This document shows, piece after piece, positions 17,864 through 45,582 of a DNA stretch of 45,582 nt. The stretch lies in contig JAQTUQ010000013.1 in assembly GCA_028707255.1 (NCBI GenBank), forward strand, positions 1 to 45,582, given 5' to 3'. The notes beneath the pieces were generated by a model, which was not told where the DNA came from, made no database searches, and was given only the letters and a program-made list of their open reading frames with translations. Source of the DNA: Dehalococcoidales bacterium (GTDB taxonomy: Bacteria > Chloroflexota > Dehalococcoidia > Dehalococcoidales > UBA5627). The first letter of the stretch is position 1. Every line of letters starts with the position of its first letter. Position numbers and translations under genes: made by a program.

Positions 17864-18051
17864 ATGAAGCCCGATTTGATGGATATACTTGTATGCCCGT
17901 TGTGTAAAAAAGCCTGCAGCTTGTGGTACGGGAACAAAACGCACAAGAGATTGTAACCGGCTTCCTGTTTTGCAGTGCATGTAGCAGCACTTACCCAATA
18001 TCCGATACTATCCCTGATTTACTGCCGCCGCAAGCCAATTCATGGTTTTAA
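17864..18051 (+). pseudogene. Trm112-like zinc protein, interrupted by a -1 frameshift
   Basis: The first frame reads MKPDLMDILVCPLCKK and then runs to an early stop. Re-reading one base back after the A6 run (17906-17911) continues as SLQLVVREQNAQEIVTG, then FLFCSACSSTYPISDTIPDL and LPPQANSWF, stopping at 18051. The joined 62-residue product matches the Trm112/UPF0434 family, with zinc pairs CPLC and CSAC and the ending YPI.D.IP.LLPP. Trm112 proteins activate methyltransferases. One extra A in the homopolymer would restore the frame, so a sequencing error, a recent mutation or transcriptional slippage are all possible. The rest of the 17749-18279 gap is AT-rich and shows nothing else certain. 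Confidence 0.75.
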
Positions 18052-18279: not shown

Positions 18280-19608
18280 ATGAAAAACAATATATTAAAA
18301 CCAAAATACCGCGGTATACCGCAGTGGTTTAAAATACCCGAACATAAACTGACTGCCACAAATGCCATTCAAACACTGCCTTTGCCGGACAGGGTTGTCA
18401 TTCCGTTACATCAGCATATAGGCCCTCCCTCATATCCTGTTATTAAAATCGGAGATACGGTTTTAACCGGACAGAAAATCGGTGACAGCAATGAATTCAG
18501 ATGCGTCCCAGTGCATGCTACGATATCAGGAAAAGTAACCGATATCATTTCTTTCAAGGACGTAGTACGCAACAAGGAACAGCAGGCGATTGTAATCGAG
18601 TCCGACGGAAAAGATAAGTGGATAGACCTGCAAACAGTCGATGACCCCGAATCATTATCCAACGAGGAAATAATCTTCAAAATAAGAGAAGCCGGAATAG
18701 TGGGTATGGGTGGAGCCATTTATCCCGCCCACCTCAAATTAACGCTGCCGAAAAACGGCAGGCTGGAGACATTGATACTGAACGGGTGCGAATGCGAGCC
18801 TTATGTAACCGCAGACCACCGGGTGATGCTTGAATACGGGGAAGAGGTTATATCCGGCTTGAAAATCATAACAAAACTCATCTCTCCCGATAACATATTT
18901 ATTGCCATAGAAGATAATAAACCGGATGCCATTGAGCATTTGACAGGAATCGTCGAAAAATCAAGCCTTGACGGTCGGGTAACAATAGTTCCGATAAAAT
19001 TGAAATATCCTATCGGCGCCCGCGAGTTGCTGGTTAAAGCTGTCCTTAACAAAGAAGTTCCTTTCAGCGGCAGATGTCGTGATATCAGCGTGTTAGTTCA
19101 CAATGTCAGCACCGCCAAAGCCATACACGATGCCGTAATCGAGGGCAGACCTTTCATCGAAGAAGTTATCACCGTCGGAGGAGGCGTTAATAATCCTCAA
19201 AACCTGCTGATACGGGTGGGAACACCGGTTAAAAACCTTATCGAATACTGCGGCGGGAAAAATGTTAACGTTAATCAAATCGTGCTCGGCGGCCCGATGA
19301 TGGGCAGCGCCATAACCGACCTGGAAACGCCGGTTACCAAAGGTACCAGGTGCCTGCTGCTCAAGAATACTAAAGTAAAAGCTGAACAGGATTGCATCCA
19401 TTGTGGAAATTGTCTTGACGCCTGTTCGATGCGGCTCAACCCGTCTCTGCTGGCAAAATACTCTCAATCAGGCAGATACGATGACTGCGGAGAGGCTTAT
19501 ATAGACGACTGTATCGAATGCGGTGTCTGTACATATGTTTGCCCGGCGAACATACCGATAACCCAGTACATAAAAACAGCCAAACAGCAACTTTCCCTGA
19601 TGGAATAA
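18280..19608 (+). CDS. rnfC: Rnf/Rsx electron transport complex subunit C
   Basis: A peripheral subunit of the ion-translocating ferredoxin:NAD+ oxidoreductase, expected to bind NADH/FMN and carry two 4Fe-4S clusters. Residues 1-130 form the RnfC N-terminal domain, with the family-typical GGIP-like start (YRGIPQWFKIP) and HQHIGPP. The nucleotide-binding region has GIVGMGGAIYPAHLK (about 141-155) and LNGCECEPYVT (about 169-179). Two Fe-S motifs follow: CIHCGNCLDAC and CIECGVCTYVCP. The length of 442 is normal. First gene of rnfCDGEA; rnfD starts three bases after its stop. No Shine-Dalgarno is visible. Confidence 0.96.
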   Translation: MKNNILKPKYRGIPQWFKIPEHKLTATNAIQTLPLPDRVVIPLHQHIGPPSYPVIKIGDTVLTGQKIGDSNEFRCVPVHATISGKVTDIISFKDVVRNKEQQAIVIESDGKDKWIDLQTVDDPESLSNEEIIFKIREAGIVGMGGAIYPAHLKLTLPKNGRLETLILNGCECEPYVTADHRVMLEYGEEVISGLKIITKLISPDNIFIAIEDNKPDAIEHLTGIVEKSSLDGRVTIVPIKLKYPIGARELLVKAVLNKEVPFSGRCRDISVLVHNVSTAKAIHDAVIEGRPFIEEVITVGGGVNNPQNLLIRVGTPVKNLIEYCGGKNVNVNQIVLGGPMMGSAITDLETPVTKGTRCLLLKNTKVKAEQDCIHCGNCLDACSMRLNPSLLAKYSQSGRYDDCGEAYIDDCIECGVCTYVCPANIPITQYIKTAKQQLSLME

Positions 19609-19611
19609 TCG

Positions 19612-20577
19612 ATGGCAAAGATAAAGAAAGATAATTTAAATGTGACTGGTGAGGAAATGCTGAACTCGCCTGCCCCACATATTCACAGCAAGTGGTCGGT
19701 TAAACGCACCATGTACCTGGTTATCCTTGCCCTGATGTTCCCGACCGCTGCCAGTATTTATTTCTTCGGATTAAATGCCATACTCGTAATACTTACCAGT
19801 GTACTTGCTGCCGTAGCCACAGAATACCTGATAAAACTTGTCAGAAAGAAAAAATTCGTCATGGACGGCAGCGCGGTAATCACCGGCTTGCTGTTGGCGC
19901 TTACACTGCCACCGACGCTTCCGTTATGGATAGCAGCACTCGGAAGCATCTTTGCCATTGCCATAGTTAAAGAAGCTTTCGGCGGTTTGGGACATAATAT
20001 TTTTAATCCCGCCCTGGCCGGCCGCGCATTTATACAACTCAGTTTCCCGGCACCAATGTCCGTATGGATAGCTCCATCAGGTTTTGCCCCGGATGCCGTT
20101 ACCTCAGCTAGCCCCTTGAGCGACGCCTTTAAACAAATCGGCGACAATTTCGAGCTGTATATGGATTTACTGCTCGGAAATACCAGCGGTTCGCTGGGAG
20201 AAACATCTGCCCTGCTGCTTCTGGCAGGAGGAATTTTTCTGATAATTCTACGTATTATCGACTGGAGAACTCCGTTAGCCTTTATAGGGACGATGGCTAT
20301 CTTGAGCCTGGTGTTGGGGCAGGATGCTGTTTATCAGGTCCTCAGCGGTGGATTGATGATAGGCGCATTCTTTATGGCAACCGACTACGTTACCGCACCG
20401 CTGACACGCACCGGCAAGATTATTTTCGGAGCCGGAGCAGGGGTTTTAACGATAGTAATCAGATTGTGGGGCGGTATGCCCGAAGGTGTGTGCTATGCAA
20501 TTCTGCTTATGAACGCCGCCGCTCCGCTTATCGACAGGTATACTCAACCGAAACCTTATGGGCTTAAAAAGAAGTAA
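19612..20577 (+). CDS. rnfD: Rnf complex membrane subunit D
   Basis: An integral membrane subunit of 321 residues with about nine helices, homologous to NqrB, believed to carry a covalently bound flavin and take part in ion translocation. Family segments are HNIFNPALAGRAFIQLSFP (about residues 125-143) and ATDYVTAPLTRTGKIIFG (about 257-274). The expected flavinylation site appears as DAVTSASPLSD (about 161-171), where Ser stands in the position usually held by the flavin-bearing Thr (TSATP). ApbE-type transferase motifs tolerate Ser or Thr, so flavinylation is still possible. It sits between rnfC and rnfG with gaps of three bases. Confidence 0.94.
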   Translation: MAKIKKDNLNVTGEEMLNSPAPHIHSKWSVKRTMYLVILALMFPTAASIYFFGLNAILVILTSVLAAVATEYLIKLVRKKKFVMDGSAVITGLLLALTLPPTLPLWIAALGSIFAIAIVKEAFGGLGHNIFNPALAGRAFIQLSFPAPMSVWIAPSGFAPDAVTSASPLSDAFKQIGDNFELYMDLLLGNTSGSLGETSALLLLAGGIFLIILRIIDWRTPLAFIGTMAILSLVLGQDAVYQVLSGGLMIGAFFMATDYVTAPLTRTGKIIFGAGAGVLTIVIRLWGGMPEGVCYAILLMNAAAPLIDRYTQPKPYGLKKK

Positions 20578-20580
20578 ATT

Positions 20581-21120
20581 ATGATTAACAGTTTGAAAAA
20601 ATATTATCCTGTATTCTTTCTGGTAGTTGTCATACTGGTGTCTTCCGCTTTGATGATGGGGGCAGAAAAAATAAACCGGGCTGCATTGGAGTCGCGGCAG
20701 GACCCGGCAACGCTGGCATTGCTGCAGCAAATTTTCACCAACGCTACCTTTTATACTTACAGTGTCGATACGGAAATATATACAGTTTACAATTCCGGCC
20801 GGCACAAGCTAGGTTATGCCGTATACGGAGATGGAATGGGATACAGAGGCAGAATTACTGTCTTTGCGGGGCTTAGAGACAAGGAAACGATAGAAAATAT
20901 AATTGTAATATACCAGGTTGAGGACCTCTCATACTGGTACAGACTGGAATTAAATAATTTCTTCGATCAATTTATCGAATTGAATGTCGAGGATTGCTAT
21001 CCGAGTTTTACATGGCTGCCGGGTGGCGTTGATTCTATATCGGGGGCAACCTTCAGTTCGAGAGGCGTAGTAAACGCCGTCAGGGATGCCATATTGGATA
21101 AATTACAATATATAGATTAA
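20581..21120 (+). CDS. rnfG: Rnf complex subunit G (FMN-binding)
   Basis: A 179-residue protein with one N-terminal transmembrane helix (about 9-28) and an extracytoplasmic FMN-binding domain. The covalent FMN attachment motif is DSISGATFSS near residue 155, with the Thr of SGAT as the phosphoester site, as in NqrC/RnfG. The domain also has GYAVYGDGMGYRGRITVFAG. It is shorter than many RnfG proteins (about 200) but complete. An ApbE flavin transferase is needed and is not in this window. It is co-oriented with rnfD (three-base gap) and rnfE. Confidence 0.93.
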   Translation: MINSLKKYYPVFFLVVVILVSSALMMGAEKINRAALESRQDPATLALLQQIFTNATFYTYSVDTEIYTVYNSGRHKLGYAVYGDGMGYRGRITVFAGLRDKETIENIIVIYQVEDLSYWYRLELNNFFDQFIELNVEDCYPSFTWLPGGVDSISGATFSSRGVVNAVRDAILDKLQYID

Positions 21121-21144: not shown

Positions 21145-21759
21145 GTGTCGGGATTTGCCAAAGAATTTAAAAAGGGAATCGTGATTTCCAATCCGGTTTT
21201 TGTTCTGGCGCTCAGCCTGTGCCCGGTTTTGGCGGTAACCAATACGCTGGATAAAGCCATCGGCATGAGCGGCGCATTTGCCCTCGTGATAATCGCCTCC
21301 AACCTGATAATTTCACTGATGCGTAAAATGATTCCCGATATCGTTCGGATTCTAGTTTTTATAATCATAATCGCCACCTTTGTTTCTATTGTCGAAATGC
21401 TTTTCCAGGCATATATTCCCACTATTTATTCCGCCCTTGGTATTTACCTCTCACTGCTGGCAGTAAACTGCCTGATACTGGGGAGAGCCGAAGCGTTCGC
21501 ATCTAAAAACAAAGTTTCAGACTCGCTGGCGGATGCCCTCGGTATGAGCATCGGTTTCTGTCTGGCACTTATACTGATATCATTTTTCCGGGAACTGCTG
21601 GGGAAAGGCGGAATTACCATATTCGGAAACGAACTTTTTACACTTCCAGTCCTGGGAGATCATCCGATATCCGTTTTCGGCATGTCGATAGGAGCGTTTC
21701 TTGTAATGGGTCTTCTGGTTGCCTTCTTCAAATGGATAGGAGTAATAAAAGATGTCTGA
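21145..21759 (+). CDS. rnfE: Rnf complex membrane subunit E
   Basis: A 204-residue integral membrane subunit with six helices, homologous to NqrD. The signatures are KGIVISNPVFVLALSLCPVLAVTNTL (about residues 9-34; the Cys is one of the conserved membrane Fe-S ligands) and YLSLLAVNCLILGRAEAFAS (about 101-120; second conserved Cys). RnfA and RnfE together form the intramembrane iron-sulfur site. The GTG start at 21145 is supported by AGGAG eight bases upstream. It overlaps rnfA by eight bases. Confidence 0.95.
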   Translation: MSGFAKEFKKGIVISNPVFVLALSLCPVLAVTNTLDKAIGMSGAFALVIIASNLIISLMRKMIPDIVRILVFIIIIATFVSIVEMLFQAYIPTIYSALGIYLSLLAVNCLILGRAEAFASKNKVSDSLADALGMSIGFCLALILISFFRELLGKGGITIFGNELFTLPVLGDHPISVFGMSIGAFLVMGLLVAFFKWIGVIKDV

Positions 21760-22330
21760 ATTATTCTCCATATTCATCGGTCTGGCGCTTATCAATAATA
21801 TAGTATTGGTGCAATTCCTCGGACTGTGCCCGGTTTTAGGCGTTTCCAAAAAACTGGGGCCGGCGGTCAACATGGGATTGGCGGTTACGCTGGTTATATT
21901 CATTTCTTCGGCTCTGGCATGGCTTGCCAATAACTATATACTAGTTCCGTTACAAGCCGAGTATCTGCACCTGATAATCTACCTGTTGATAATCGGTTCC
22001 ATGGTGCAAATCCTGGAAATTTTATTAAAAAGAACCAACGAGAAGCTTTACAAATCGTTCGGATTATACCTGGCATTAATCGCCACCAACTGTGCCGTTA
22101 TCGGAGTTCTGCTTTTAAATGCCAATGAATCCTATAACTTCATCGAAAGTCTGGTAGCGGCACTGGGAGCCGGCGCCGGTTTTACACTGGTAATGGCCTT
22201 GATGTCTGGAATACGCGAGAAACTGGAGCTCTCGAATATTCCCAAAGCGATGAAAGGGCTTCCGGTAATATTCATAACGGCAGCTTTGCTGGCTTTGGCT
22301 TTTAGCGGTTTTGCGGGGATGTTGTTTTAA
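21752..22330 (+). CDS. rnfA: Rnf complex membrane subunit A
   Basis: A 192-residue integral membrane subunit with six helices, homologous to NqrE and paralogous to RnfE in inverted topology. The motifs are NNIVLVQFLGLCPVLGVSKKL (about residues 15-35) and YLALIATNCAVIGVLLLN (about 107-124), each with the conserved Cys that binds the 2Fe-2S cluster shared with RnfE. The start overlaps rnfE by eight bases. Its stop shares a base with the start of the following stub gene (TAATG), so translation is coupled. Confidence 0.96.
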   Translation: MSELFSIFIGLALINNIVLVQFLGLCPVLGVSKKLGPAVNMGLAVTLVIFISSALAWLANNYILVPLQAEYLHLIIYLLIIGSMVQILEILLKRTNEKLYKSFGLYLALIATNCAVIGVLLLNANESYNFIESLVAALGAGAGFTLVMALMSGIREKLELSNIPKAMKGLPVIFITAALLALAFSGFAGMLF

Positions 22331-22467
22331 TGAACTACACACTGATAATTATAATATTTGCCGTTCTGGGATTTATTTTCGGAGCTTTAATTTATTTTGC
22401 TCAATATAAAATAAACGAACGTAAAAATAAGCCGGAAGACAACAATCATCTCCCAAAAGACGGTTGA
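22330..22467 (+). CDS. RnfB-like stub: membrane anchor only, no Fe-S domain
   Basis: A 45-residue protein in the exact place of rnfB (rnfCDGEAB order). It reads MNYTLIIIIFAVLGFIFGAL then IYFAQYKINERKNKPEDNNH and LPKDG. One transmembrane helix (residues 4-24) has the pattern I..AVLG.IFG.L..A..K.. that also begins RnfB proteins. RnfB normally continues with a Cys-rich Fe-S domain and ferredoxin-like clusters of over 150 residues. Here no Cys occurs at all and the frame ends in a normal stop. Overlap with the rnfA stop supports that it is translated. It may be an assembly anchor for a separate RnfB-like protein, or a relic. The RnfB similarity is judged by eye. Confidence 0.72.
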   Translation: MNYTLIIIIFAVLGFIFGALIYFAQYKINERKNKPEDNNHLPKDG

Positions 22468-22903
22468 ACTTTTATCATATGGCAGCAGTTTAGCCCCGCG
22501 AGATGACCTCTTTAAGAATTCAAACATAAAGATTTTCTAATATAGATTACAATTTGTATTAAAAGGATTACATTGTTGTAGGTAGTATATTGACATCTTT
22601 TTATGTTTGTGTTACATTGACAGACAATTGGTAAATATAATACACTCTTTCTCATGCAGGCATATTATTTGTTTCGCAAACAGGAATAACCGGAAGTTTA
22701 TTTAATAACTTCTGAAAAAAGGTCTTTAATATAATAAATACTACTTGAGGTTCGGAGTCCAAAAAAGTAGTATCTCCTATCGAGGAAAGGAGATGGCATG
22801 GTGAGCAGACGATAAGTGTAAAAACTTAGACGTCTTAATTACAAAATTGCGTACTGTTTTTTACTGACTAAGTTATCAATAAATTCCACGTAAAGGAGTA
22901 AGA
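22468..22903. other. Long AT-rich leader and promoter region of the hydrogenase operon
   Basis: A 436-base gap. A candidate promoter is TTGACA (22590-22595), 17 bases, TACATT (22613-22618). A second TTGACA (22617-22622) and a TATAAT (22636-22641) are only 13 bases apart and would pair poorly. If the first is used, the leader would be about 275 nt and would contain the hairpin array at 22738-22835. No protein gene was found here. Confidence 0.5.
22738..22835 (+). ncRNA. Candidate structured leader RNA upstream of hydrogenase
   Basis: Three consecutive hairpins stand out in AT-rich sequence. Stem 1 is ATACTACTT/AAGTAGTAT (22738-22746 with 22765-22773; nine perfect pairs, 18-base loop). Stem 2 is ATCTCC/GGAGAT (22772-22777 with 22789-22794). 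Stem 3 is AGACG/CGTCT (22807-22811 with 22831-22835), extended by TAAGT/ACTTA inside. Stems 1 and 2 share two bases, so they may compete or one is shorter. The array ends 68 bases before the hydrogenase ATG. It matches no riboswitch consensus that I know. It might be a regulatory leader, an RNA processing site or a small RNA. Confidence 0.45.
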
Positions 22904-23974
22904 ATGGATACACTCTTTCTAAGACCCAAACCAACAAGGCGAGAATTTTTACAAGTAGCCACTGCCTCACTGGCACTCCTCGGGCTGAGCCAGGCTCTAA
23001 CTCCGAAGGTAGTTAAAGCCCTGGAAGAAACCTCCGGCAAACCTTCCGTAGTTTGGCTTCACGGACAGGAATGCACCGGGTGCAGCGAATCCTTCGTCAA
23101 CAGCCTCGACCCGACAGCAGCTTCACTTGTACTGGATACCATTTCCCTGCGCTATCATGAAACGCTGATGGCAGCTTCCGGCTATCACGCCGAAGAAGCA
23201 CTGGAAGATGCGATATCCGAAAGCGGTTATCTGCTGGTAATCGAGGGAGCGATTCCTCTGGCTGAAGACGGATTGTACTGCACTATCGGCGGTAAAACCT
23301 TCAAGGACATCGTCAGGGAGTCCGTTAAAAATGCCGCAGCAATTGTATGTGTAGGCTCCTGCGCTACATTCGGAGGTTTCCCGGCGGCAGGCCCAACCGA
23401 CGCGGTCGGATTCCTCTACAAAAACACCAAAAAACATCATGAATTCGATGATGTCACGGGCAACAAGCCGGTTATCAATCTGCCCCGCTGTCCGATGCAC
23501 CCCGAAAGCCTGGTAGCCGTAATAGTACACTACCTGACATTCGGCACGATTCCTCCACTGGACAACTTCGAACGGCCGATAGCCTTCTACGGCGAATTGA
23601 TGCACGATAACTGCGAACGCCGCGGACAATTCGAAGCCGGTCATTTCTTAACCGATTGGGGAGACCCCAGCCAGAACGGTTACTGTCTGTATCTGAAAGG
23701 ATGCAAAGGCCCCTGGTCAAGACATGATTGCTGGAAACGGGGATGGAACGGGACAAGCACTTATTGTATCGCTGTCAATGCACCCTGCATAGGTTGCAGC
23801 GAACCCGAGTTCTATGAGCGATTCAGCCCGTTATACGACAGGCAGTTCGATGTTACTCTGCCCGGAATCGGTAAAGTAGATATAGATAAAGTTATGGCTA
23901 CCGTAGCTGCCATTGCCGCAGCCGGCATTGGTATTGATACGATTATAACCAAACTGAAAGGGGAGGAGAGTTAA
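22904..23974 (+). CDS. hupS: [NiFe] uptake hydrogenase small subunit
   Basis: The electron-transfer subunit of a group 1 hydrogenase, carrying three Fe-S clusters on the outer face of the membrane. A twin-arginine signal TRREFLQVAT (residues 11-20) is followed by a hydrophobic stretch. The proximal cluster motif is ECTGCSES (C57, C60) with CVGSC and LPRCP further on. Distal and medial ligands lie in MHDNCERRGQF, CLYLKGCKGP, HDCW, TYCIA and PCIGC. The position that is Pro in classical enzymes with a medial 3Fe-4S cluster is Cys here (TYC), so three 4Fe-4S clusters are likely. The CTGC proximal motif, lacking the extra Cys pair of oxygen-tolerant enzymes, suggests an oxygen-sensitive type. The C-terminus has a hydrophobic anchor (VMATVAAIAAAGIGIDTII). 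Strong ribosome binding site AAAGGAG. Confidence 0.96.
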   Translation: MDTLFLRPKPTRREFLQVATASLALLGLSQALTPKVVKALEETSGKPSVVWLHGQECTGCSESFVNSLDPTAASLVLDTISLRYHETLMAASGYHAEEALEDAISESGYLLVIEGAIPLAEDGLYCTIGGKTFKDIVRESVKNAAAIVCVGSCATFGGFPAAGPTDAVGFLYKNTKKHHEFDDVTGNKPVINLPRCPMHPESLVAVIVHYLTFGTIPPLDNFERPIAFYGELMHDNCERRGQFEAGHFLTDWGDPSQNGYCLYLKGCKGPWSRHDCWKRGWNGTSTYCIAVNAPCIGCSEPEFYERFSPLYDRQFDVTLPGIGKVDIDKVMATVAAIAAAGIGIDTIITKLKGEES

Positions 23975-25561
23975 ATGGGCGAGCGAATTATTATTGACCC
24001 GATTACCCGTATCGAAGGCCACCTCAAAATAGAAGTAGAGGTGGAAAACGGTATAGTAACCAATGCATGGTCTTCCGGCAATATGGCGCGCGGCATCGAA
24101 GTACTGCTGCAGGATAAAGACCCGCGGGATGCCCCTTATATCACCAGCCGCATCTGCGGTGTATGTGAAGGCGTGCATGCTATCGCTTCATCTTTCTGCC
24201 TTGACAGTGCTTTCGACGTGGAAGTACCGGAAGCCGGCAGGCTGATGCGCAACCTTTACTGTTCATCGCAGTATACCACGGACCATTATATTCACTTCTA
24301 TGTGCTTTCAGCGCTGGATTACCTGGATATCATGGCGGTAGCAGATTACGCAGGGAATGACGCCGGATTACTGGCTATCAGAGATAAAATCAGGTATCTG
24401 GCTTCCAAGAATGACCTTTCACCGTTTACGCCGCGCTATGAACCGGACCAGTATTGCGTCAATGACCCTGAAATAGTAACCACGCTGGTATCACACTATA
24501 TCCAGGCAATAGAAGCCAAAGCCAGGTCAAGTAAGTTGCGTGCCATGATCACCGGTGTTCAACCCCATATTAATTCGACAATGGCGGGCGGATGTACGGC
24601 AACCCCCACAGTCGAACAACTGAGAGAAATTAAACAACTCTGGCAGCAAGAGGTTGATTTTGTAAATAATATATATATCCCCGATGTTGAATTCGTCGGC
24701 ACCGGCCCGCTTTTGGAACTGGCTACCATGGGACTGGGCGGCGGTACTCAGAATTACCTGTGCTATCCGATGTTCCCGCAGGCCGACCCATCCGGCAGTG
24801 CCGACCGCTCATTCGGCGGCAGAAACCATATGTTCAAGGGCGGCGCTATTATCGGCGGCGCATTGAATGCTGCTGAAAACGTTGATTACAGCAAGATTAC
24901 CGAATCGGTTAAATATTCGTGGTACGACTATCCCGATGACAATCAAGGACTTCATCCATATGACGCTGTAACCCAGCTCAATGCAAGGAAGGAAAATGCT
25001 TATTCATTTGTAAAAGCGCCGCGCTACAAGGGGCAGCCGATGGAAGTCGGACCTCTGGCAAGGGGTTTGGTGAACAAGTATCCCGGCCTTATGGCGTTAA
25101 TCGAAGCTGGCGTCAAGCCCGGCGCTGTCGCCAGACATTATTGCCGCGCTGTCGAATCACAGTCGATAGCCGAAGCCGGACTGGAATGGATTGACAAATT
25201 GACCGAAATGGCTTTAGGCGGAACGATAGTCGGTATGAAAGACCAGCCTGTTCCCAAATCGGCAGAGGGCTTCGGTGTCTATGATGCTCCCAGAGGTGCA
25301 CTCGGTCACTGGATACAGATAGAACATGGACGCACCAAGAATTATCAGATTGTCGTTCCCAGCACATGGAACGCTTCGCCCCGCGATGAAAATGGTGTCA
25401 TGGGACCATATGAGGCATCTCTTATCGGCTGCCCGGTACCCGATACCAACAACCCGATTAACATCGTTCGTATCATTCGTTCTTTCGACCCGTGCCTGGC
25501 TTGTGCCATCCACGTTATCGACCCGGAAAGTAATAACATAAAAGTACACAAGGTAGTTTAG
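23975..25561 (+). CDS. hupL: [NiFe] uptake hydrogenase large subunit
   Basis: The catalytic subunit of 528 residues, oxidising H2 at the NiFe(CN)2CO site. The N-terminal Ni ligands lie in RICGVCEGVHAI (C61, C64) and the C-terminal pair in DPCLACAIH (C507, C510). All four are Cys codons with no selenocysteine UGA. After the His (513) comes a 15-residue tail, VIDPESNNIKVHKVV, which is the peptide expected to be removed by the protease at 26219 once nickel is inserted. It starts directly at the small-subunit stop with GGAGGAG as ribosome binding site. It travels through the Tat system together with the small subunit. Confidence 0.97.
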   Translation: MGERIIIDPITRIEGHLKIEVEVENGIVTNAWSSGNMARGIEVLLQDKDPRDAPYITSRICGVCEGVHAIASSFCLDSAFDVEVPEAGRLMRNLYCSSQYTTDHYIHFYVLSALDYLDIMAVADYAGNDAGLLAIRDKIRYLASKNDLSPFTPRYEPDQYCVNDPEIVTTLVSHYIQAIEAKARSSKLRAMITGVQPHINSTMAGGCTATPTVEQLREIKQLWQQEVDFVNNIYIPDVEFVGTGPLLELATMGLGGGTQNYLCYPMFPQADPSGSADRSFGGRNHMFKGGAIIGGALNAAENVDYSKITESVKYSWYDYPDDNQGLHPYDAVTQLNARKENAYSFVKAPRYKGQPMEVGPLARGLVNKYPGLMALIEAGVKPGAVARHYCRAVESQSIAEAGLEWIDKLTEMALGGTIVGMKDQPVPKSAEGFGVYDAPRGALGHWIQIEHGRTKNYQIVVPSTWNASPRDENGVMGPYEASLIGCPVPDTNNPINIVRIIRSFDPCLACAIHVIDPESNNIKVHKVV

Positions 25562-25573
25562 GGGGTAGTGAAA

Positions 25574-26197
25574 ATGACAAAATCAGAATCTCAGGAAATG
25601 CGACACCCTCCGGTGTTCCGTAAATTACACGGTTTAATAATGTGGTCTATCCTTCTCCTGGTAGTTACCGGTTTTTATATCCACTATCCCTTCGTGGATG
25701 GGCAGGGATTTTTAATGTCGCTGGCACGCGGCGTTCACTTCCTGTTTGCCGGCGTACTGATAGTTGCCGGCTTGACCCGCTTTATAATGATGTTTATCGG
25801 TAAGAACCGGGATTGGAAATCGTTTATTCTCACCTTTAAAGACTTGGCTCTGATGCCTAAATTTATAGCTCATTATCTGCATCTGACCAAAGAACCCAAG
25901 CTGTCCAAGAAATATAATCCGTTACAGATGTCGGCATACTTCATGGTATTTCTATTTATTATTTTCCAGATACTTTCGGGCTTGGCCCTACTGTTCCCTG
26001 AAAGCTTTATGGCATGGTTTAACTACGGTATCTTTGGTAACGAATACACCTCACGTATCTGGCACTATATTATAACCTGGGTATTCGTCTTCACACTGAT
26101 GATTCATCTTTACCTTGCTATTCGTCAGGGACGTGGAAACAAGGCGGAAGATATCAGGGAGATGCATTCCGTAAATACTGCCGACGAGAAAGAATAA
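25574..26197 (+). CDS. Hydrogenase b-type cytochrome subunit
   Basis: A membrane di-heme cytochrome of about 207 residues that links the hydrogenase to the quinone pool. Four helices are seen (about 22-42, 55-78, 123-145, 165-187). Candidate heme ligands are His in RKLHGLIMW (about 20), ARGVHFLFAG (about 56), RIWHYIITW and LMIHLYLAIR near the end. This spacing is as in HyaC/HupC and the Ni/Fe-hydrogenase cytochrome b561 family. A GTG six bases further upstream is possible, but GGGGGT is correctly spaced (seven bases) for the ATG at 25574. Confidence 0.9.
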   Translation: MTKSESQEMRHPPVFRKLHGLIMWSILLLVVTGFYIHYPFVDGQGFLMSLARGVHFLFAGVLIVAGLTRFIMMFIGKNRDWKSFILTFKDLALMPKFIAHYLHLTKEPKLSKKYNPLQMSAYFMVFLFIIFQILSGLALLFPESFMAWFNYGIFGNEYTSRIWHYIITWVFVFTLMIHLYLAIRQGRGNKAEDIREMHSVNTADEKE

Positions 26198-26218: not shown

Positions 26219-26704
26219 ATGAATAATGATGTACTTAAGGCGGAAAAGAAGACTATGGTGCTGGGAATCGGCAACATAATCATGGGTGACGAGGGCTTCG
26301 GACTGCATGTTATCCGCCGCCTTAAGGAAATCGGAATGCCCGAAAACATAATCCTTGAAGAAGGCGGAGTAGGCGGATTCGACCTGTTAAATGGTCTACA
26401 GGGTATAGAGAAACTGGTAGTGGTAGATATCATGATGCTGCCGCTGCCGCCCGGTGAAATTAAGGTATTCGAACCGGGGAATCCGCCGAAAGAACCCGGA
26501 AAAGCAATCGTTTCTTTCCACCAGATAGGTGTCCTGGAACTGATAAATGTATGGGCAATGATGGGAAACGAAGAACCGGAAGTGACGTTCATAGTTACCC
26601 GTCCACAGACTATAGACTGGAGCACAGAGCTTTCACAGCCATTGAAACCGGCTGTCGAAAAGGCAGCGGATATGATAAAAACCCTCTGTGCGGATTATAA
26701 TTAG
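26219..26704 (+). CDS. hupD: Hydrogenase maturation endopeptidase (HupD/HyaD type)
   Basis: A 161-residue cytoplasmic protease that removes the C-terminal tail of the large subunit once nickel is inserted. The nickel-sensing residues are visible: Glu in GIGNIIMGDEGFG (about residues 16-28), Asp in VVVDIMMLP (about 72-80) and His in VSFHQIG (about 100-106). It follows cytochrome b in the operon as is usual, and the large subunit in this window has the matching cleavable tail. Confidence 0.95.
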   Translation: MNNDVLKAEKKTMVLGIGNIIMGDEGFGLHVIRRLKEIGMPENIILEEGGVGGFDLLNGLQGIEKLVVVDIMMLPLPPGEIKVFEPGNPPKEPGKAIVSFHQIGVLELINVWAMMGNEEPEVTFIVTRPQTIDWSTELSQPLKPAVEKAADMIKTLCADYN

Positions 26705-26718
26705 AAGGAGTAATAATT

Positions 26719-26898
26719 ATGTATCATCTGGCTTTTTTAATCGCTGCACCGATATTACTGATATCAGTGATCACTTTTTATATAGGCGTACGCAAAACCG
26801 GGAGTAACCCGCGCGGCGGTGTCAGCGTCATGTCGTGGGGATATAATATCGGGCTTCTCGGTATTTTCGTAGCTGCCATGATATATCTCTTCGCTTAA
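26719..26898 (+). CDS. Small two-helix membrane protein in hydrogenase operon
   Basis: A 59-residue protein with two transmembrane helices: MYHLAFLIAAPILLISVITF and, after a basic loop (VRKTGSNPRGG), YNIGLLGIFVAAMIYLFA. A strong ribosome binding site AGAAGGAG lies eight bases before the ATG. It is the last gene of the operon, 14 bases after hupD, and is followed by a good terminator. No family is recognised. The position and the two helices suggest an accessory subunit that stabilises the cytochrome b/hydrogenase complex or its quinone site, but this is inference. Confidence 0.75.
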   Translation: MYHLAFLIAAPILLISVITFYIGVRKTGSNPRGGVSVMSWGYNIGLLGIFVAAMIYLFA

Positions 26899-42175: not shown

Positions 42176-43231
42176 TTAAGACTGTATTTTACATTTGTAC
42201 TTTTTGAAACCAGAGATAATAAAAATAATCCCGGCGGCAAAGAGCGGCAAGGTGACAAATAGTAAAGTATAACCTATGTCCAAGCCGATTACGCGCGAAA
42301 CCATCCCGATAACGAACATCTCTCTTAAAATAAAAACAACCAGGCTTAAAATGATGAGAAAGATACCTCCGATAACCGGCCATTTACGAGCAAGCCAGAG
42401 CCCGATAAACGGCAGCGGAATAAGATATAGCATAAACCCGTATCTACCCACCCAATCAAGCTGGAAAAGAGCTATTACGGTTAAAAAACCCACGGCGCCG
42501 ATCAGCCCAAGAAATAAGCCTTCCCTGAAACCATCGTTTGTTCTTAAAAATGAGACTTTTGTATTATCAGGTTGATGATTGTTTTCCTGCTCTGCCGATT
42601 CGTTTGTTCTTTTACCGCGTATTTTCCCGATGGTCACACTGACAATCCAGCGCCAGTTTATAATCAAATGGATTAGTAAAATTGCAGCCATTGCTACACT
42701 TACCCAGGCATGCAAATCCTGCCATTCATTTCTTTGCAACCCCCAGAATACCCGTCCAATATCATTTTTCATATTAACGAAATCACCGACACCCCTGGGT
42801 AAAATCAGCCAAAGAACAAAACCCGACAGTACCTCGAAACAAGTCATAACAACAAGCATAAAGTTGACGGTGTAGAGTTCCAAAATTGCTTTCTGACGTG
42901 TTAGTATCTTTTCCGTTACCCTTTTCATGGTTTTAACAATCCATTTCCAGTGCAAAACGATGTGGATTAGAATTATGCCGATTGCTATAACTGCAATCCA
43001 TGAGTGCAGTTCCACCCATATATATCTCGGCAGATCGAAAGCCGTCCAGGCATTGCCTGTCGGTCCGAGGCCGGTTTTGAATGTTTTATGGCAATAATCA
43101 GAAATTCTTGAACCCATCCCCATAGGCAAAATGAACCACAGTATGAAGCCGGAGACGTTTATTGCTATAAAAGCATATGTCATCAGAAAATCGACGGCGT
43201 AGTTATAGTATTTTTTAGGAAGGAATTTCAT
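42176..43231 (-). CDS. Tandem DUF4405-type membrane cytochrome b-like protein
   Basis: A 351-residue membrane protein made of two repeats of a four-helix DUF4405-like unit, then a C-terminal hydrophobic domain. Repeat 1 has VELHSW (H76) and LIHIVLHW (H90, H94); repeat 2 has DLHAW (H174) and LIHLIINW (H188, N192). The His in LH-x-W and H-x3-HW are the expected heme ligands. In repeat 2 the last His is Asn, whereas the paralogue at 44721 keeps it. Each repeat begins with the SGF.LW.ILP.G.G segment. The C-terminal four helices (about 235-345) are shared with the paralogue. AAGAGGAG precedes the ATG. I infer electron transfer in the membrane. Confidence 0.8.
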   Translation of the reverse strand: MKFLPKKYYNYAVDFLMTYAFIAINVSGFILWFILPMGMGSRISDYCHKTFKTGLGPTGNAWTAFDLPRYIWVELHSWIAVIAIGIILIHIVLHWKWIVKTMKRVTEKILTRQKAILELYTVNFMLVVMTCFEVLSGFVLWLILPRGVGDFVNMKNDIGRVFWGLQRNEWQDLHAWVSVAMAAILLIHLIINWRWIVSVTIGKIRGKRTNESAEQENNHQPDNTKVSFLRTNDGFREGLFLGLIGAVGFLTVIALFQLDWVGRYGFMLYLIPLPFIGLWLARKWPVIGGIFLIILSLVVFILREMFVIGMVSRVIGLDIGYTLLFVTLPLFAAGIIFIISGFKKYKCKIQS

Positions 43232-44720: not shown

Positions 44721-45582
44721 TTATTCTTTATATGTTTCAAATTTTTTTCTGTTTTTCAATCCCGATAGGACATAAAGGCACCCGGAAACAAAGATGGGGA
44801 TAGTCACGCAAACCAGCATATAACCTAACCCGGCATTGAATTTATAATCGTGCATTCCAAGCGGGTTGTTCAAGCTCAGGAATATTGTCGCCACACTCAG
44901 GAGAATCAGTAACCCTCCGCCGATATAAGATTGCTTCCACGCCAACAGCAGAAATACGAAAGGTATGGGAATCAGATATAACATATAATCATATCTGCCG
45001 GCCTGGTCAAGCTGTTGGTAAACAACCATAAAGACCAGGAAAGAAATTGCCCCCACTAAACCGATAAAAAATCCGGCACGTGGCAGATAACTCGGTTCAT
45101 TATCAGTTGTTTCGAACTCTGATTGATATGGCTTTTGTGCGACCGTTGTATTTTCCATTTCTCCATTGTCACGTTTTTCTTTCTTACCAAGAGTCATATT
45201 GAGATTCCAGCGCCAGTGTATAATAAGGTGTATTATAACTATTGCCAACATCAACACAGACGCCCATGCATGAAGGTCAAGCCACTCGTTCCTCTGCAAA
45301 CCCCAAAAAGTACGCCCCATCCCTTGAATCATCGCATTAAAGTCACCCAGCCCTCTCGGCATAACCAACCATAGTACACAGCCGGACAGTGTTTGAAATA
45401 CCATAAATACAAAAAGTAAAAAGACAGTGATGTAGCGTTCCAAAATCATCTTCTGTCTTTTTACGATATAGCTCTTAAACCTCCCCGCGGTCTCTTTAAG
45501 CCATTGCCAGTGAATTACAAGGTGGATTATTACAATGATTGCTGTTATAACCCCTATCCACGAATGCAATTCCACCCACATA
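44721..45582 (-). CDS. Tandem DUF4405-type cytochrome, paralogue (N-terminus beyond window)
   Basis: A paralogue of the protein at 42176, with the same order of segments. These are VELHSW and IHLVIHW, then the second unit with PRGLGDF, GLQRNEWLDLHAW and IIHLIIHW, then a hydrophilic linker and a four-helix C-terminal domain. All four repeat positions that could bind heme are His here, unlike the other copy. The start lies beyond the right window edge; about 70 residues equivalent to the paralogue's N-terminus are missing. It is the first visible gene of the minus-strand group 45582 to 39897. Confidence 0.8.
   Translation of the reverse strand, partial: MWVELHSWIGVITAIIVIIHLVIHWQWLKETAGRFKSYIVKRQKMILERYITVFLLFVFMVFQTLSGCVLWLVMPRGLGDFNAMIQGMGRTFWGLQRNEWLDLHAWASVLMLAIVIIHLIIHWRWNLNMTLGKKEKRDNGEMENTTVAQKPYQSEFETTDNEPSYLPRAGFFIGLVGAISFLVFMVVYQQLDQAGRYDYMLYLIPIPFVFLLLAWKQSYIGGGLLILLSVATIFLSLNNPLGMHDYKFNAGLGYMLVCVTIPIFVSGCLYVLSGLKNRKKFETYKE

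Follow-up and report, generated by a model that had tools for sequence, protein, structure and literature searches.

In the draft genome of a Dehalococcoidales bacterium (Chloroflexota; 1.64 Mb, 98% complete), the operon for the membrane complex Rnf encodes, where the iron-sulfur (Fe-S) protein RnfB is expected, a 45-codon gene that corresponds to the N-terminal membrane helix of that subunit and to nothing else of it. The operon lies on contig JAQTUQ010000013.1 (GenBank assembly GCA_028707255.1), whose 45,582 nt are referred to here as the window. The short gene product, hereafter the stub, is a homologue of the RnfB helix; it is conserved, under selection and the sole RnfB remaining in the genome. 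The remaining Rnf subunits are intact and under selection as well. An initial annotation, made from the nucleotide sequence of the window, had described complete rnfC, D, G, E and A genes in the usual order, followed by a 45-codon gene that starts on the rnfA stop codon and specifies one RnfB-anchor-like helix without any Cys. The coordinates and family matches agree with the first part of this description, as do the open reading frame (ORF) and the profile scores given below with the second. The genes of the operon, all on the plus strand, are:

18280-19608 (+): rnfC, complete, family match; domain for flavin mononucleotide (FMN) and NADH, and both C-terminal [4Fe-4S] motifs (C372/375/378/382 and C411/414/417/421)
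19612-20577 (+): rnfD, complete, family match; riboflavin-site N132 and D258 present, covalent-FMN site DAVTSASPL (Ser for Thr)
20581-21120 (+): rnfG, complete; flavinylated T157 (SGAT) present, ETPGxG replaced by QVEDLSYW from Q112, C139 unique to the reduced clade
21145-21759 (+): rnfE, complete; ligands C26 and C109 of the AE1 cluster and Na+-site R68 and E116 present
21752-22330 (+): rnfA, complete; AE1-cluster ligands C26 and C114 present
22330-22467 (+): rnfB stub, the N-terminal membrane helix of RnfB; 45 amino acids, no Cys

The genes rnfC, D, G, E and A are contiguous and homologous to Rnf families (TIGR01945, 498 bits; TIGR01946, 330 bits); rnfE and rnfA scored slightly under their TIGR cut-offs, and rnfG reached 42 bits against a cut-off of 102.

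The ORF of the stub begins at the last base of the rnfA stop codon (TAATG), and its product, MNYTLIIIIFAVLGFIFGALIYFAQYKINERKNKPEDNNHLPKDG, contains no Cys. Profile searches with the stub alone gave no significant family match, and neither PF04060 nor Fer4 was detected. Scored with a profile built from the RnfB N-termini of relatives, this stub and its three counterparts in the genus reached 13.4–20.4 bits. The maximum among 2000 composition-preserving shuffles was 10.1 bits, none reaching the level of the stubs, and the best hydrophobic decoy other than RnfB scored 8.3 bits; the seven decoys that exceeded 60 bits turned out to be true RnfBs that had not been filtered out. The stubs outscored the shuffles and the non-RnfB decoys even when G012, a related genome with a short RnfB, was omitted from the profile. 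In an alignment with full RnfBs, the helix pattern xGxxxGxxIYxxxxKI recurs in the stubs, which stop after it, and all four lack Cys. The profile score identifies the stub as the RnfB helix, and the start overlap with rnfA and the position of the gene agree with this. In five of six genome pairs synonymous change exceeded nonsynonymous change in the helix (Fisher p 0.0026 to 7e-10), several of the synonymous distances being saturated for so short a gene. The tail, unlike the helix codons, which are under purifying selection, varies in length and sequence.

A frameshift or assembly error is ruled out by the presence of the same type of stub in four genomes and by the absence of any RnfB remnant in the 436 bp downstream of the stub (best tblastn match, E = 1.3). 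The initial annotation had allowed for a local frameshift, in which case the frames of related genomes would continue into an Fe-S domain; the related loci carry the stub too. The comparison of stub lengths that it had proposed gave 39, 41, 44 and 45 amino acids in the four rnf-bearing genomes of the genus. Among the 27 genomes of the order with rnfA (all genomes compared here are drafts from uncultured organisms), these four have a stub, G012 has an RnfB of 177 amino acids, 20 have a full-type RnfB and two are cut before the site. Nineteen of the full-type proteins are complete (276–295 amino acids, 24–28 Cys), and one more is cut by a contig end. Outside the genus, 20 of the 21 order members with a readable locus have the full type, G012 being the exception, and full RnfBs were present at 13 of 13 additional class-level loci and at 77 of 80 named loci across many phyla (the remainder being two cut loci and one with a different gene order). 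No independent loss of rnfB was found in the class sample of 13 loci, in the phylum sample, which gave no further matches, or at the 77 of 80 named loci.

In a tree of RnfD, G, E and A, G012 and the stub genus form one clade (bootstrap 100). The RnfB of G012 (177 amino acids, 13 Cys) lacks exactly the segment from the helix linker to 'KKA', which is the PF04060 domain, and its last clusters are also gone. This domain is known as FdI in RnfB of Clostridium tetanomorphum (PMC9588780) and as B8 in that of Acetobacterium woodii (residues 30–100; PMC11889175), and it passes electrons between the remainder of RnfB and AE1, the [2Fe-2S] cluster in the membrane (PMC9588780, PMC11889175). Since G012 has lost PF04060 but kept other clusters, the electron link to AE1 appears to have gone before the remaining clusters did. 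Judged from its sequence, the G012 protein is an intermediate in the reduction of RnfB. Stepwise trimming of RnfB to a single membrane helix is part of the overall explanation that we favour with moderate confidence.

No RnfB core was found elsewhere in the six genomes of the genus with TIGR01944, PF04060 or an order-specific RnfB profile. The best match in the genus scored 34.6 bits; the positive control, G079, reached 484 bits, and G012 reached 173 bits. Among the candidates for a soluble RnfB, all of them rejected, one was AcsC-like, another was a sensor kinase carrying an Fe-S N-terminus, and the remainder were other Fer4 proteins. A full-length rnfB elsewhere, which would have overturned the initial annotation, and the soluble RnfB-like protein for which it had proposed a search, were thus found neither in the 98%-complete genome nor in its five genus mates.

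The other subunits have retained nearly all their cofactor ligands. The four Cys of AE1, two each in RnfA and RnfE, are all kept, as are the riboflavin Asn and Asp of RnfD and the Na+-site Arg and Glu of RnfE. RnfC has its FMN/NADH domain (PF01512, E = 6e-43) and the eight Cys of its two [4Fe-4S] motifs. The flavinylation Thr of RnfG is retained in the clade (SGAT, SGST or TGAT), and the FMN transferase ApbE is encoded elsewhere in the genome. The ratio of nonsynonymous to synonymous substitution (dN/dS) was 0.04–0.16 for the rnf core, not far from the 0.03–0.08 of the neighbouring hydrogenase, and all rnf frames are open in four genomes at synonymous distances (dS) of about 0.5–1.4. Such constraint, together with the retained ligands, fits poorly with decay, one of the options in the initial annotation, by which the ferredoxin:NAD function would be lost and the complex would be disappearing or serving another role (e.g. 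ion leak or redox sensing). Decay would agree with the stepwise reduction, with the loss of a motif in RnfG described below and with the failure to find rnfA in two of the six genus genomes, although both of these are only 80 and 84% complete. We regard it as quite unlikely; the part of it that may hold is the loss of the original ferredoxin:NAD activity. The Ser in place of Thr in RnfD was considered as a special sign and rejected, since G051, which has a full RnfB, carries it too. In G021 (locus L056) the covalent-FMN site of RnfD reads DLISGINPL, without an acceptor Thr or Ser. The C-terminus of RnfC is shorter and less basic in the stub genus (7 versus 10–12 residues), a difference too small to weigh.

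A striking co-change affects RnfG at its flavin pocket. The motif ETPGxG is absent from all four RnfGs of the reduced clade and present in the 74 others (69 of 69 from named loci and five of five from order members with full RnfB); RnfGs were found by profile, and that of G002, which lies outside the contig, was left out. According to work on the NqrC structure (PMC4348036), the motif is absolutely conserved and makes up the FMN pocket, where its Thr hydrogen-bonds flavin N5. A Cys at the position of C139 in the window RnfG is common to the four reduced-clade proteins and absent from the other aligned RnfGs. The change in the pocket suggests that the redox tuning or the partner of RnfG has shifted. 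As two standard features of Rnf, the Fe-S RnfB and the ETPGxG pocket, are lacking, we classify the complex as an Rnf variant and not as an ordinary member. An AlphaFold2 model of RnfG from a four-row alignment was of low confidence (predicted local distance difference test, pLDDT, 60) and was not used. Two relatives with full RnfB, G074 (locus L057) and G056 (locus L058), have RnfGs without the standard [ST]G[AS]T (TSST and MAT instead) that keep ETPGxG.

A [NiFe] hydrogenase operon follows the stub after 436 bp:

22904-23974 (+): [NiFe] hydrogenase small subunit with an N-terminus of the twin-arginine translocation (Tat) type, family match
23975-25561 (+): [NiFe] hydrogenase large subunit, family match
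25568-26197 (+): b-type cytochrome subunit, family match
26219-26704 (+): hydrogenase maturation protease, family match

A related small subunit (at least 74% identity) occurs in all six genus genomes, in G012 and in G048, the last being a genome of 74% completeness in which no rnf was found. All five rnf-bearing genomes with a reduced RnfB have this hydrogenase, whereas in the remaining 22 order members with rnf the identity never exceeds 44%. It lies directly downstream of the stub in G000, G002 and G005 and adjoins the short RnfB in G012. In G003 a radical S-adenosylmethionine (SAM) gene follows the stub, and the hydrogenase is on a different contig. The association with reduced RnfB is only suggestive, because it comes from one clade and few independent events. 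The link to H2 metabolism raised in the initial annotation stands as a co-occurrence only, and adjacency to rnf fails in G003. These observations would be accommodated if the periplasmic hydrogenase and cytochrome b exchanged electrons with RnfG, so that H2, not ferredoxin, fed the complex and the soluble part of RnfB became unneeded; both the lost invariant motif and the new clade-wide Cys are in RnfG, the periplasmic subunit. Besides the G003 arrangement and the single-clade origin of the co-occurrence, however, the AE1 cysteines of RnfA and RnfE are fully kept, though a direct RnfG-RnfD-RnfC path would need none, and feeding by H2 appears unlikely to us. A UbiA-type prenyltransferase, tried as a quinone marker, was uninformative, being found not only in clade members but in Dehalococcoides-like genomes as well.

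The hydrogenase of G003 (L151, 4948-7041) stands beside genes for a divergent membrane protein, a Tat-type Fe-S protein and an aldehyde-ferredoxin-oxidoreductase-like protein. Upstream of the hydrogenase in the window, a non-coding stretch (22610-22903) is conserved in G000, G002 and G005 and contains an inverted repeat, TCTCCTATCGAGGAAAGGAGA, at 22773; an Rfam scan of the window, this stretch included, gave no match. A membrane ORF of 59 amino acids lies 3' of the protease gene (26719-26898), its position being conserved in G001, G002 and G003.

The explanation that we favour, at roughly even confidence, is a working but rewired Rnf: RnfB would persist as a structural helix, and the RnfA/E cluster would be met directly by a different Fe-S protein, probably a soluble ferredoxin. 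In solved structures the RnfB helix stands in a four-helix bundle with RnfG, RnfA and RnfE, and FdI acts as a shuttle (PMC9588780); the helix also contacts that of RnfG (PMC11889175). The helix alone may have survived because of this bundle, to which each of the four subunits would contribute one helix, and of this contact. FdI/B8 would normally swing into the RnfA/E groove and exchange electrons with the buried AE1. Here a diffusible 4Fe-4S ferredoxin, or some other Fe-S protein, would take the place of the lost mobile domain in trans by docking directly in that groove. As AE1 is kept, electrons should still pass through it; the tethered shuttle being absent, the simplest partner would be a free ferredoxin or some other Fe-S protein. 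After docking, electrons would run from AE1 to the FMN of RnfG, the flavins of RnfD, RnfC and NAD, or in reverse, coupled to ion movement. The RnfB of Thermotoga maritima has one cluster and still accepts ferredoxin (PMC7414866), which indicates that the outer RnfB clusters are dispensable.

Several points weigh against direct docking of ferredoxin. In A. woodii, B8 feeds AE1, B8-Cys mutants are inactive, and neither ferredoxin:NAD activity nor growth remains once the B8 cluster is removed (PMC11889175); free ferredoxin is thus no simple substitute there. The loss of ETPGxG from RnfG implies that the downstream path has also changed, which docking leaves unexplained. No dedicated donor protein was found, the genome-wide search having covered RnfB relatives only, and the genomes are drafts from uncultured organisms. 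Of the options in the initial annotation, a separate Fe-S donor is the likeliest that remains, although no dedicated one was identified; entry of electrons directly at RnfC is a weaker account of the retained RnfA/E cluster cysteines. That electrons enter this extant Rnf by a new route bypassing RnfB, either through a soluble carrier docking at the RnfA/E cluster or through H2 via the periplasmic RnfG flavin, is a plausible though tentative proposal.

Another soluble partner might be an NADH-dependent Fe-S flavoprotein, analogous to NqrF, that uses the anchor or the RnfA/E groove. Reyes-Prieto et al. (2014) proposed such an origin for Nqr, by loss of rnfB and recruitment of a reductase with the RnfB helix (PMC4014512). 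Here both [4Fe-4S] motifs and the FMN domain of RnfC are kept, unlike in NqrA, and no NqrF-like gene (FAD plus [2Fe-2S]) lies between rnfA and the hydrogenase, the search having been limited to the operon; we consider this rewiring improbable. The complex is not an Nqr: it shares with Na+-Nqr and the proposed rnfB-loss intermediate the missing RnfB Fe-S module and the remaining membrane helix (PMC4014512, PMC12174285), but its operon has no NqrF and its RnfC has not degenerated to an NqrA-like form. With the Rnf of A. woodii and C. tetanomorphum (RnfCDGEAB) it shares the gene order, full-length homology of RnfC, D, E and A, and the AE1 and RnfC Fe-S ligands; it differs in the absence of FdI/B8 and of every further Fe-S domain from RnfB, and of ETPGxG from RnfG. 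The rnfCDGEAB operon of T. maritima likewise encodes a strongly shortened RnfB (10.6 kDa), but one reduced the opposite way, which keeps only the helix and a one-cluster FdI, the part lost first here, whereas the stub has no cluster (PMC7414866). Two-subunit Nqr/Rnf-like complexes also perform Rnf-derived membrane flavin electron transfer without RnfB, but they lack RnfA/E and have an NAD-binding domain fused to the RnfD-like subunit (PMC10979944). No description of a natural Rnf without an Fe-S RnfB was found in the literature searched, subscription journals being mostly outside the search.

Elsewhere in the window, a Trm112-like zinc-ribbon gene (17864-18051) is frameshifted; an intact version of 79 amino acids occupies the equivalent place in G005 (L052:1475-1714). 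On the minus strand, 42176-43231 and 44721-45581 encode paralogous, cytochrome-b-like membrane proteins with repeated histidine-containing helices (WVELHSWI...IHI..HW), with another ORF in between.

Rnf is considered to depend on the mobile Fe-S domain of RnfB as its essential electron gate, cluster-less mutants being inactive. A natural, selected complex without this domain implies that the core can be fed another way or has a different job. Its minimal core makes it possible to ask how the entry of electrons at the buried [2Fe-2S] cluster is gated, and the complex is a living case for testing the 2014 proposal that Nqr began by rnfB loss with retention of the helix, G012 supplying an intermediate. 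If the new electron entry is real, this complex would correspond, in nature, to the rnfB-loss intermediate through which Nqr has been proposed to have arisen.
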